DNA of 28,594 nt, taken from positions 1 to 28,594 of the IMG/VR virus record IMGVR_UViG_3300009157_000039; one strand, written 5' to 3'. Position numbers and translations under genes: made by a program. This DNA comes from a virus. Below the pieces are notes generated by a model. It was given only the letters and a program-made list of their open reading frames with translations. It was not told the DNA's origin and made no database searches. This document shows, one piece after another, positions 2,858 to 25,389 of the stretch; the stretch's first letter is position 1, and every line of letters begins with the position of its first letter.

Positions 2858-3645
2858 GGCGACCGACCCCAGCCAGCCTGCCAGGGCACTGCGACCCTGG
2901 CGTTCCAGCTGACCGGCGTCCTGCCGGCGAAGATCGGCGACGGCTTGTTGGAACCCATCAGCATGGTCAGCGCGTCGCTATACGTGCCGAGGTCTTCCTG
3001 ATAGGGCGACCCTTTCTGCGCCTTCCATTGCCACGTCATGCCCAGCTTCAGCAGCCGCTCGGGCAGGCGAAACGCATCGTTGTCGTTCACGAAGCGGTCG
3101 CCCAGGCCGCCGCCGTTCAGCACGACGCAATTCTTGTCGAGGTAGGCGAACGTCGCCAGGACGCCCGGCACAGCCGGCACGACCGGCGGTCCCGGCTGCT
3201 CGGCGACCGGACCCATCATGATCGGGTGAATGAGCATCTGGTTGCCTTGCAGCGTCCACTCGCCCCAGGCGTCCTCCTCGTTCGCGGCGCGGCGGCGCAG
3301 CCACTCGGAATAATCGGGAATGAACAGCATCGGCTGCTGCGTCGAGGTACTCCTCCACACCTCGGCGGTGAGCAGCATGCGCTGATAGTTGGCCGGCAGA
3401 TTGAACGCCGACGTGCCGGTCACGACGCCGGTCGCCGGGTCCTTGACGCCGTCGCCGATGAACGAGGTCGACGTCTTCATCTGCCGCCATTCGCGTAGAT
3501 CGTAGGCGATGCGCTGCGCCATCTCGGTGGCGAGCGTCGCCATCTCGAACATGGTGCGGTTGGTGGTGATGCTCGCAAACACGGTGGTCGGCCTTTGCAC
3601 GCCGACCACCGCGCAAACGTCCTGCACCACCGTCAACAGCGACAT
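2854..3645 (-). CDS. Head-tail adaptor / gp4-like tail accessory protein
   Basis: The protein has 263 residues and starts at ATG 3645 with AGGG about nine bases upstream. The N-terminus (SLLTVVQDVCAVVGVQRP) and the later ATEMAQRIAYDLREWRQM helix and LPANYQRML segment match the style of P22 gp4-like adaptor/DNA stabilisation proteins, which bind below the portal ring. The C-terminal part includes RLLKLGMTWQWKAQKG, also typical of this family. The gene lies between the capsid-associated protein and the 555-residue closure protein and overlaps the latter by ATGA. The assignment rests on recalled family flavour plus order, not on a search. Confidence 0.7.
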   Translation of the reverse strand: MSLLTVVQDVCAVVGVQRPTTVFASITTNRTMFEMATLATEMAQRIAYDLREWRQMKTSTSFIGDGVKDPATGVVTGTSAFNLPANYQRMLLTAEVWRSTSTQQPMLFIPDYSEWLRRRAANEEDAWGEWTLQGNQMLIHPIMMGPVAEQPGPPVVPAVPGVLATFAYLDKNCVVLNGGGLGDRFVNDNDAFRLPERLLKLGMTWQWKAQKGSPYQEDLGTYSDALTMLMGSNKPSPIFAGRTPVSWNARVAVPWQAGWGRSP

Positions 3646-19645: not shown

Positions 19646-20478
19646 GCGCTCACCCTCCCCGGCTTCACGCTGTAGCGCGCGCGCTTGATGCCGAGAGCCG
19701 GATCGCCTCTCCAGTGTGCCGAGACATACTCAAGCTGCCCGTTGCGGATGCGAATGTGCTTGCGACAGAAGTGCAGGGCGCGCCGGCCGGTCAGATGTGC
19801 CTCGTGCGGCTCGCCGTCATCGATCTCGGGCGGCTTGGCGACCTCCAGCTTGATCTCGGTCCACGCATGCAGCGGGAATTTGCCGCGCCCGAAACCGCGC
19901 GTCAGTTCGCGCTCCAGCCCCACATTCGGCATGTACTGCCGACGCCCGATGATCCTCGGGCTGTTGATCAGCACGAGGACTGTCTGCGTAATACCCATCA
20001 GGGCGGACGCTGCTTGCAATGGATCGCGGCCGACCTTTAGCCAGTTCCGCATCGCCTCCTCCTCAAGACAAAAATCTCCGGTCTTGGGGATGAGAAACCC
20101 GATGCCGATCGCGGCTTGATGCTCGAACAAGCTGACGCCGACCGCTTCACGCATCACGCCAGCCCGATCCTCCATCGGCTCGGGAGCTTGCTTCAGCAGC
20201 ACGGCGCGCCGGTTGCGTTTGCTCGGTGCTTCGGGGACTTTCCACTCCAGCCAAGTGTTTGGCGCAGGCAGGAAACCAAACGTGTCGAACGCTCGCTCAA
20301 AATTCGTACGCTGCATCGTCTCGGAGATTAGATCCCAGCACGAAGTCACCTCAAAGCAATGGACATCATCAAGCGCGTAGCGCAGATCGGGGATGACCTC
20401 CGGATTGCGCCAGAACCCCTCGCGGTGCTTCGGCCGCGCGACGATCTGCTTGGCGAGATAGGCTGCGAGCGGTGTCAT
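19642..20478 (-). CDS. Conserved phage protein of unknown function
   Basis: The protein has 278 residues from ATG 20478, overlapping the VRR-NUC stop by ATGA. Segments such as INSPRIIGRRQYMPNVGLER, FPLHAWTEIKLEV, GRRALHFCRKHIRIRNGQLE and YVSAHWRGDPALGIKRARY look strongly conserved and recall an uncharacterised phage family of alphaproteobacterial phages. No catalytic motif is obvious. The Arg/His-rich C-terminal half suggests nucleic-acid binding. Its company (nuclease, VirE ATPase) suggests replication or recombination, by inference. Confidence 0.7.
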   Translation of the reverse strand: MTPLAAYLAKQIVARPKHREGFWRNPEVIPDLRYALDDVHCFEVTSCWDLISETMQRTNFERAFDTFGFLPAPNTWLEWKVPEAPSKRNRRAVLLKQAPEPMEDRAGVMREAVGVSLFEHQAAIGIGFLIPKTGDFCLEEEAMRNWLKVGRDPLQAASALMGITQTVLVLINSPRIIGRRQYMPNVGLERELTRGFGRGKFPLHAWTEIKLEVAKPPEIDDGEPHEAHLTGRRALHFCRKHIRIRNGQLEYVSAHWRGDPALGIKRARYSVKPGRVSA

Positions 20479-20888
20479 GCGCTCACCCTCGCTTGCACGA
20501 TGCCGAGATCACGCAGTGTGCCGATGATGTCGGCGTAGTCGTCGCTGCAGTGATAGGTGAACCCGCACTTGATGAGATGCAGCGCCACCTCCGACTGCAC
20601 CTCACTCAGCCGCCCGCCCGGCCGCTTCAGCTCAAGCCAGAACACGCTGGCGCCGGGGCCGCAGAAAATGAAATCGGGAAAGCCCGGCATCACGCCCATG
20701 CGCTTGAGCCGCATCGCCGTTACCATGTCGCGCTTCTCGCCGGCCGGGATGTGCGTGTAGCGCCACAGCGGATTGCACCAGCGGCGCAGCGTGTCGGCCA
20801 CCATGCAGTGCAGCTCGTACTCCTTCGCGCGCAGCAGCGGCACGCCGCGCTGGCGCTTGCTTCGAAAGAGATGGAGTTGCCGCTCCAT
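20475..20888 (-). CDS. VRR-NUC domain nuclease
   Basis: ATG 20888 shares one base with the previous stop (TGATG) and gives 137 residues. MPGFPDFIF at 67-75 supplies the PD pair, VFWLELKRPGGRLSEVQ at 82-98 the ELK motif and the downstream Gln. This is the standard VRR-NUC version of the PD-(D/E)XK fold, found in structure-specific nucleases such as FAN1 and in many phages, where they are thought to resolve branched DNA. It is the second gene in the leftward early operon. Confidence 0.88.
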   Translation of the reverse strand: MERQLHLFRSKRQRGVPLLRAKEYELHCMVADTLRRWCNPLWRYTHIPAGEKRDMVTAMRLKRMGVMPGFPDFIFCGPGASVFWLELKRPGGRLSEVQSEVALHLIKCGFTYHCSDDYADIIGTLRDLGIVQARVSA

Positions 20889-23897: not shown

Positions 23898-24039
23898 TCT
23901 TGAGGAGCGGCGCGAGGAGCTGCTCCAGCAGCAGCTGCGCGTCTTCCGCGAGGGGCTGATCCGCAGGCACTACACCGACGCCGAGGTCGACACCCAGGTC
24001 GCCGCGCTCGAACAGCGGCTACGGGACAAGATGATATGA
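23845..24039 (+). CDS. Small charged helical protein, 64 residues
   Basis: ATG 23845 follows GGAGGAAACC, a strong ribosome site. It reads MTRLATNDRRLQAHYRSDLEE and RREELLQQQLRVFREGL then a second Arg-rich helix, suggesting a coiled coil. It ends in an ATGA overlap with the next gene. No family recognised. Confidence 0.7.
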   Translation: MTRLATNDRRLQAHYRSDLEERREELLQQQLRVFREGLIRRHYTDAEVDTQVAALEQRLRDKMI

Positions 24040-24278
24040 GCGACTACACCGATGTGCAGAAGTTCGACGAGCTGACGCGCGAGCTGGCGATGCGGATCAG
24101 GCACTACCCGGCCATGATCGAGCGCGGCGTGCTGACCGAAAAGATCGCGCAGTACCGCATCAAGCTGCTGCAGCAGATCGCGTTCGATTACCGGGCGCGC
24201 ATCGATCTACAGCTGAAGCTGCTGTTAGACGAAGTGTCACCAAAAACTGATGAGCATTTTAACATCATCAAAGACTGA
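24036..24278 (+). CDS. Small helical protein, 80 residues, end overlaps a tandem duplication
   Basis: ATG 24036 overlaps the previous stop by ATGA. The sequence (DVQKFDELTRELAMRIRHYP, then IAQYRIKLLQQIAFDYRARI) is helical. The C-terminus (KTDEHFNIIKD) is encoded within a repeated block, and its TGA stop lies in the second copy. The last residues may therefore have been added by the duplication. No function recognised. It closes this rightward sub-operon before two hairpins. Confidence 0.68.
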   Translation: MSDYTDVQKFDELTRELAMRIRHYPAMIERGVLTEKIAQYRIKLLQQIAFDYRARIDLQLKLLLDEVSPKTDEHFNIIKD

Positions 24279-24288
24279 TGAGCATTTT
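24246..24288. repeat. Direct repeat of a 15-base unit, 28 bases apart
   Basis: ACTGATGAGCATTTT occurs at 24246-24260 and 24274-24288. The spacing implies a tandem duplication of about 28 bases. The first copy is in the coding end of the previous gene, the second holds its stop codon. Confidence 0.85.
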
Positions 24289-24353
24289 GGTGGGCGCTCC
24301 TTCCCCACCGGAACGCGCCCCGGCCGCCGTATCCTGGCCGGCGAGCCGGGGCG
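24289..24353 (+). terminator. Two consecutive hairpins between sub-operons
   Basis: GGTGGG at 24289-24294 pairs with CCCACC at 24304-24309. CGCCCCGGC at 24316-24324 pairs with GCCGGGGCG at 24345-24353, a 9-bp GC stem. An inner GGCCGG-type pairing may extend the second. No long U-tract follows, so termination would be Rho-assisted or partial. A likely new promoter comes next. Confidence 0.5.
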
Positions 24354-24403: not shown

Positions 24404-24439
24404 CTGCGGTTGTTCTGGTAACCGAAGGAGCAACCAGCA

Positions 24440-25064
24440 ATGAAGAAGTGGGCGCACGTTGAAATGCTGATCGAATGGGAACAAGGTCTTTGACCTTATG
24501 GAGTTCTGTGAAGGCCGCATCCTCGCCGGAAGCCTGAAGTTTCGCCCCGTAAAGCACGGCGGCGACACCGAAGAAGGAGCCCCTCGCGCGCGTCCAACCA
24601 AACGCGAGTTTTTGTTGACGTTCGCTGGAACGCGCGATGGGAAGTGGTCCGTCAAAGACGCGATTGCCGAGGCCGACAGGTACGGCTTCAGCAAGGGCGC
24701 GATCTACACCGGGCACGCCGCGCTCGTAGTGGAGAAGACGTTCAAGCGCGTCTCCCCCGGCGAGTATGTGCTCTCAGCGAAGGCCGGCGGAAAAGCAAAA
24801 GCAGTGCCGCCGCACTCCCGCCCCAAAAAACAGCTTGGGCGCAAGACCAGCAGACGCATAAAGCCGCCCGGCACGACGATGATGGACAAGGTGCTCATCG
24901 CGCTGAAGGGCGTGCAAAACGGATCGGGCGAAGGCGTCGGCATTGGCGACATTCGCAAGGCGATGCAGACCACCAAAAACATCAGCCCATATTTACGCGA
25001 CCTTGTCGCCGACAAGCAGGCTACCCGCGTTGCACCGGGCAAGTATCGCGCAATAGCACAGTGA
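24440..25064 (+). CDS. DNA-binding-like protein with an apparent RF2-type +1 frameshift
   Basis: ATG 24440 has GAAGGAG nine bases upstream and opens a 17-codon frame (MKKWAHVEMLIEWEQGL) ending CTT TGA C at 24488-24494. That is the core of the prfB +1 frameshift site, and the +1 frame continues as DLMEFCEGRILAG into the 188-codon ORF to 25064. The joined product would be 207 residues (24440-24490 plus 24492-25064). Starting at ATG 24498 alone lacks a good ribosome site. The body holds two similar wing-like modules: KWSVKDAIAEADRYGFSKGA with KRVSPGEYVLS, and VGIGDIRKAMQTTKNISPYL with TRVAPGKYRAI. Function unknown, winged-helix-like DNA binding suspected. A real frameshift mutation or sequencing error would look the same. 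Confidence 0.55.
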
Positions 25065-25074
25065 AGGAGCGAGT

Positions 25075-25389
25075 ATGACTACGGCCAAGAAAAAATCGCG
25101 GTTGCCACTGTACTCTGCTTACGTTTTTCGAGGGGACGAGAAAGACCCGATCATCGACACTGTTCATACGTGGCTCGATGACGCCGGGTTGAACTACGCC
25201 CAGGCGAGCGAACGCAGCGGGGTCTCGGCCAGCACCCTCTATCAGTGGATCGAGGGAAAGACGAAGCGCCCGCAGTTCTGTACGGTCGCTGCCGTAGCCG
25301 GCGCGCTCGACATGGAATTGAAATGGGTCAAGCGGAGAGGACAGCCCGCCGACGTCTCGATTGGAGGGCGCCAAGCAGCAGCGCACTGA
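25075..25389 (+). CDS. XRE-like HTH regulator
   Basis: The protein has 104 residues from ATG 25075 with GGAG six bases upstream. DTVHTWLDDAGLNYAQASER then SGVSASTLYQWIEGKTKRPQ is a lambda-repressor-type HTH: helix 2 AQASERSGV, recognition helix STLYQWIEGK. Then FCTVAAVAGALDMEL completes the five-helix bundle. Likely a transcription regulator in the rightward early operon. The next gene overlaps its stop by one base. Confidence 0.78.
   Translation: MTTAKKKSRLPLYSAYVFRGDEKDPIIDTVHTWLDDAGLNYAQASERSGVSASTLYQWIEGKTKRPQFCTVAAVAGALDMELKWVKRRGQPADVSIGGRQAAAH

Follow-up and report, generated by a model that had tools for sequence, protein, structure and literature searches.

The window, i.e., the whole analysed stretch of 28,594 bases (63.5% GC) from an IMG/VR virus record, contains a soil phage gene for a DNA-binding regulator whose reading frame is broken exactly at CTTTGAC, the core of the programmed frameshift site of prfB. 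Comparison with a single-frame relative gave good support for one conserved protein being encoded jointly by the two frames, with the break exactly at CTTT. RF2-type +1 slippage at CTTTGAC is the origin that we favour for the full-length protein, and on present analysis we give it a chance only a little short of even.

Reading frames and start signals

The portal, terminase, helicase and amidase genes are carried by the minus strand, and the early region on the plus strand comprises the split regulator gene, followed by the helix-turn-helix gene (Table 1). A previous sequence-only reading had claimed a strongly initiated ORF of 17 codons ending in CTT TGA C (24488-24494), with a +1 frame open for 190 codons. 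Both points were borne out: GAAGGAG lies 9 nt upstream of the ATG at 24440 (−8.0 kcal/mol), and the +1 frame is terminated by the stop at 25062-25064. The 17-codon part corresponds to the N-terminal strand and the beginning of the first helix of the full protein. Upstream, the +1 frame is closed by a stop immediately before 24471, and no ATG, GTG or TTG start is present in this frame between 24471 and the ATG at 24498. The sole SD-like sequence preceding this ATG is AAGG at 24483-24486, at a distance of 11 nt and with a weak duplex, whose energy varies with the anti-SD tail from −3.8 to −6.4 kcal/mol. The earlier statement that the downstream ORF has no good ribosome site is therefore fair.

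The sequence CTGATGAGCATTTT occurs twice at 24247-24290, with a spacing of about 30 bp, at the end of the upstream gene, just ahead of the intergenic region running to the ATG at 24440. TGA is the stop codon in 12 of the 14 larger window genes that were checked, so that this phage depends largely on release factor 2 for termination.

Table 1. Positions of the features of the split regulator gene and its surroundings in the window.
Feature	Position	Strand	Remarks
Upstream syntenic gene	24036..24278	+	homologous to the gene preceding the L104 orthologue
Shine-Dalgarno GAAGGAG	24424..24430	+	9-nt spacer to ATG 24440; anti-SD duplex −8.0 to −8.8 kcal/mol
0-frame gene start	24440..24493	+	17 sense codons MKKWAHVEMLIEWEQGL, then TGA 24491-24493
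AAGGT, only SD-like sequence near the site	24483..24487	+	0-1 nt before CTT; 11 nt before ATG 24498
Perfect inverted repeat AAGGTC-TTT-GACCTT	24483..24497	.	centred on the frame break
CTT TGA C, prfB shift-site core	24488..24494	+	in frame of ATG 24440; alignment frame change maps here
+1-frame gene part	24492..25064	+	encodes fused-protein residues 18-207 (190 codons past the shift); homologous to L104
+1-frame ATG	24498..24500	+	4 nt past TGA; candidate site of coupled restart, with a truncated product
Winged helix 1 (predicted), residues 54-111	24600..24773	+	AlphaFold2, pLDDT ~89-95
Winged helix 2 (predicted), residues 147-204	24879..25052	+	AlphaFold2, pLDDT ~88-97
Partner helix-turn-helix gene, xKDPxID motif	25075..25389	+	Pfam HTH_3, E 1.9e-5; a homologue follows the L104 orthologue
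Gene pair, window copy	24440..25389		other loci: L104, L106, L114, L116, L118-L120, L124-L126, L130-L134, L136, L137

The single-frame orthologue and the predicted fold

The portal protein was common to 64 viral contig loci with 53-69% identity. Whole-record searches of 50 of the portal-sharing contigs turned up a single clear counterpart of the fused protein, on contig G025 (locus L104; E 1.3e-19, query residues 2-204, 33% identity), where 217 codons form one open frame uninterrupted by stops. Its downstream neighbour is homologous to the helix-turn-helix gene of the window (44% over 54 residues) and its upstream neighbour to the window gene 24036-24278. Since the flanking genes are homologous on both sides, L104 is, judged by sequence and gene order, a single-frame positional (syntenic) orthologue. 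In the alignment, the 202-residue ORF of L104 starts 2 residues ahead of the 17-codon ORF of the window, and it reads GGT TTC GAC where the window has the break. Searches of phages and plasmids, single-protein scans of viral and genome contigs and a further alignment revealed no relative closer than 33% identity.

When the leader and the downstream residues together were compared to the N-terminus of L104, a score of 55 was obtained, versus 10.5 for the downstream residues alone. Neither the leader shuffled 20,000 times nor any of 6,062 other real 17-codon stretches of the window came up to this score (z 6.4). In a scan for the position of the +1 shift against L104, codons 10-15 resulted in scores of 41-52, codon 16 in 61 and codon 17 in 55, and the frame change thus maps to codons 16-17, i.e., to CTTT. 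The homology of the leader to the N-terminus of L104 argues for one regulator crossing the +1 shift and not for a leader plus a gene. A separate leader peptide and a complete gene starting at ATG 24498, linked only by translational coupling or attenuation, would fit the gap of 4 nt between stop and start and the strong SD of the leader, but L104 contains the homologous leader region in one frame. As the orthologue includes the leader in frame, the downstream ORF is not complete from its own start, and such an arrangement is strongly disfavoured and very unlikely.

An N-terminal motif of other phage proteins was also tried, with a made-up consensus as probe and then with a profile of 12 annotated phage proteins; a few shuffles outscored the leader, fusion of the frames gave no gain, and the motif was rejected.

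An AlphaFold2 model of the fused protein was built with 16 family sequences. It predicted two winged helices (Table 1), in agreement with the DNA-binding-like product that had been proposed from the sequence, and a helix comprising residues 13-26 that spans the junction with moderate confidence. The pTM of 0.39 means that the model supports the domains singly and not their arrangement. Fold matches were mostly winged-helix proteins, none of them below E 0.001, and Pfam, PHROG and NCBIfam gave no match worth naming for the regulator. The product is hence predicted from the model to be a tandem winged-helix regulator of the DNA-binding type; two winged helices are predicted in place of release factor 2.

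On the contig that is nearest to the window by DNA (L040/G020, 82% over 19665-20886), the syntenic upstream gene is followed by an unrelated gene in the slot of the regulator (L138, 1123-1605), so that the regulator is an exchangeable accessory gene.

Proposed slippage at CTTTGAC and its rivals

The shift site of prfB consists of CTTT, an in-phase TGA and a following C, with an AGGGGG stimulator upstream (PMC12421855), and the internal SD is spaced 3 nt from CTT (PMC5009743). The window site has the CTTT slippery sequence, the in-phase TGA and the C after the stop, and here too the functional part lies in the +1 frame and the shift occurs early, at codon 17 as compared to stop codon 26 in E. 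coli prfB. Unlike prfB, the product is a phage regulator and not RF2, so that no feedback would result, and the break is absent from relatives. The internal SD also differs: neither AGGGGG nor AGGAGG is present 3 nt before CTT in the window, and AAGGT is weak and lies 0-1 nt from CTT, whereas prfB has AGGGGG at 3 nt. AAGGT forms about 4 contiguous anti-SD pairs with an energy of −4.6 kcal/mol, versus −10.6 kcal/mol when this anti-SD is applied to E. coli prfB.

According to the slippage model, translation would begin at 24440. With tRNA-Leu on CUU and UGA(C) in the A site, termination would release a peptide of 17 residues; alternatively, tRNA-Leu would slip by +1 onto UUU and a protein of 207 residues would be made. 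No other product would have the whole N-terminal domain that the orthologue shows. Since a proper internal Shine-Dalgarno stimulator is missing, the efficiency is expected to be low to moderate, and it should be higher when termination at UGA is slow. The slippage itself, its frequency and a selected rather than incidental role are what we infer from this comparison.

The arrangement of the ORFs was compared to other phage DNA. An SD-led ORF of 8-60 codons followed by a +1 frame of at least 100 codons was found at 370 places in 1.38 Mb; 2 of these ORFs end in CTTTGA, and CTTTGAC occurred in the window only. This amounts to a layout with CTTTGA about once per 25 windows of the same size. With this many such layouts, the overlap of the ORFs is weak evidence and, taken alone, not compelling; the homology is. 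Based on 897 comparable phage ORFs, a random one-base insertion yields CTT TGA C with a probability of about 1.2e-4.

This coincidence favours slippage, as do the strong, intact start signal and the 188 further intact codons, the one-frame match of L104, the leader score, the core elements of prfB and the predicted helix 13-26 that crosses the junction. Against slippage stand the missing stimulator, the relatives without the break, the inverted repeat and the fact that all CUU-stop +1 sites in RECODE belong to prfB (PMC10885494). Of the prfB-type shift that had been proposed, the part concerning one protein from two frames with the junction at CTTT was upheld, while the stimulator is absent or misplaced and the site was found in no relative. 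Conservation of CTTTGAC and of the two frames in homologues, which the sequence-only reading had named as a point to check, was not observed: L104 and about 17 distant members of the gene pair described below all have a single frame. That reading had itself named a one-frame homologue with one base fewer as speaking against it, and L104 is such a homologue. This result does not settle the matter, since the shift is missing from many prfB genes as well, being present in 64% of 12,753 genomes (PMC12421855).

The single-frame relatives speak for the main rival, a recent one-base insertion that broke the gene in this phage, perhaps templated by the repeat (quasipalindrome correction), the likeness to prfB being a coincidence. 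One extra base in the sequence that L104 has at this position suffices for the heptamer, and the prfB-type stimulator is missing. The break is centred in the perfect inverted repeat (Table 1), and template switching at imperfect inverted repeats is known to perfect them and to produce frameshifts, with examples that include T4 and E. coli (PMC7202029). Template switching at the repeat could explain why the extra base, and hence part of the heptamer, is located exactly here. About 1.3% of the window bases fall at the loop of such repeats (arms of 6, loop of 3-6). Like the quasipalindrome frameshifts in T4 rIIB and E. coli thyA, the frame in the window breaks at the centre of a perfect short inverted repeat in phage DNA; the window differs in that the imperfect ancestor is not seen and that a random indel rarely gives CTTTGAC. 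If the insertion were random, the exact CTT TGA C would be the 1.2e-4 event. In addition, the remainder of the gene is without decay, and the repeat may pre-date the break, the ancestral bases not being readable at 33% identity. An insertion would leave mainly the 17-residue peptide and a truncated protein made by coupled restart at ATG 24498, just 4 nt after the stop; an SD shortly upstream of a gene end can serve such a restart (PMC5009743). The truncated protein would keep both winged helices; missing from it would be the first strand and one half of the first helix. We regard an insertion as a serious possibility, with a chance clearly below even. Both estimates are a judgement, with the 1.2e-4 coincidence on one side and, on the other, the inverted repeat, the lack of a stimulator and the fact that such sites are rare outside prfB. 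Slippage and recent insertion are not fully exclusive, as some full-length protein could still leak from a gene with a fresh insertion at a shift-prone site.

The palindrome was also considered as an operator; there is no second exact copy, near copies occur at chance level, and this was rejected.

A sequencing or assembly error, with one base fewer at CTTT in the phage and an ordinary gene, would likewise agree with a single-frame orthologue, the record is a metagenome contig, and hairpins can disturb sequencing. The run, however, consists of only three T, and the genes covered by proteins of related contigs, i.e., most genes of the minus strand together with some of the early region, showed no other frame break on the coding strand. 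Apparent frame switches near 3640 and 4404 were not counted, since they lie opposite to annotated genes (shadow ORFs). The exact junction pattern, with 0-2 bases at the break, matched no other contig in either form, so that nothing contradicts the base. An error is thus possible, but improbable and not favoured.

The sequence CTT TGAC CTT ATG would also allow a hop, in which tRNA-Leu would detach from CUU at 24488, pass over UGAC and re-pair with the matching CUU at 24495, in the same frame as after a +1 shift and with a product that is shorter by one Asp-Leu step. T4 gene 60 likewise has a stop adjoining its take-off codon, as well as a take-off stem-loop (PMC5009743). The alignment with L104 retains the Asp that a hop would skip, and we consider hopping extremely unlikely.

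Slippage in the window would have consequences beyond this gene. It is a tentative and rather unlikely reading of our analysis that CUU_UGA_C would be used here for the first time outside prfB and without a canonical internal Shine-Dalgarno stimulator, the full-length regulator being made only under slow UGA termination, by which the phage would read the release factor 2 state of its host. If this is true, a site-gated regulator would tie a phage decision to the termination capacity of the host, and a CUU-stop site would be shown to be usable without a Shine-Dalgarno partner. A fresh insertion would instead provide a clear-cut case in nature of a gene being put onto a shift-prone sequence by mutation, and a plausible route by which such shift sites are born.

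The winged-helix/KDPxID gene pair

Homologues of the partner gene are preceded by a winged-helix gene in about 17 further loci, each in one frame. The proteins from these upstream genes have one or two winged helices and a similar N-terminal strand-helix-strand pattern, as read from the alignment. The window likewise has a winged-helix gene directly upstream of the KDPxID helix-turn-helix gene; it agrees with these loci in gene order, partner gene and winged helices, and the frame break was found in the window copy only. Apparently, this is a widespread and unnamed phage gene pair, with an xKDPxIDxxRT motif in the small partner protein, and the pairing suggests that both proteins act together.

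An N-terminus profile from 17 members of the pair did not recognise the window and showed no preferred shift position, and the fused N-terminus scored no higher than shuffles. Since the profile of distant members fails on the window, the firm conclusion on one protein rests on L104, and membership of the wider family on L104, gene order and the winged helices.

At one locus (L117), the pair is split by an ORF resembling HNH-type nucleases (946-1380), which gives the impression of a homing endonuclease insertion between the two genes.
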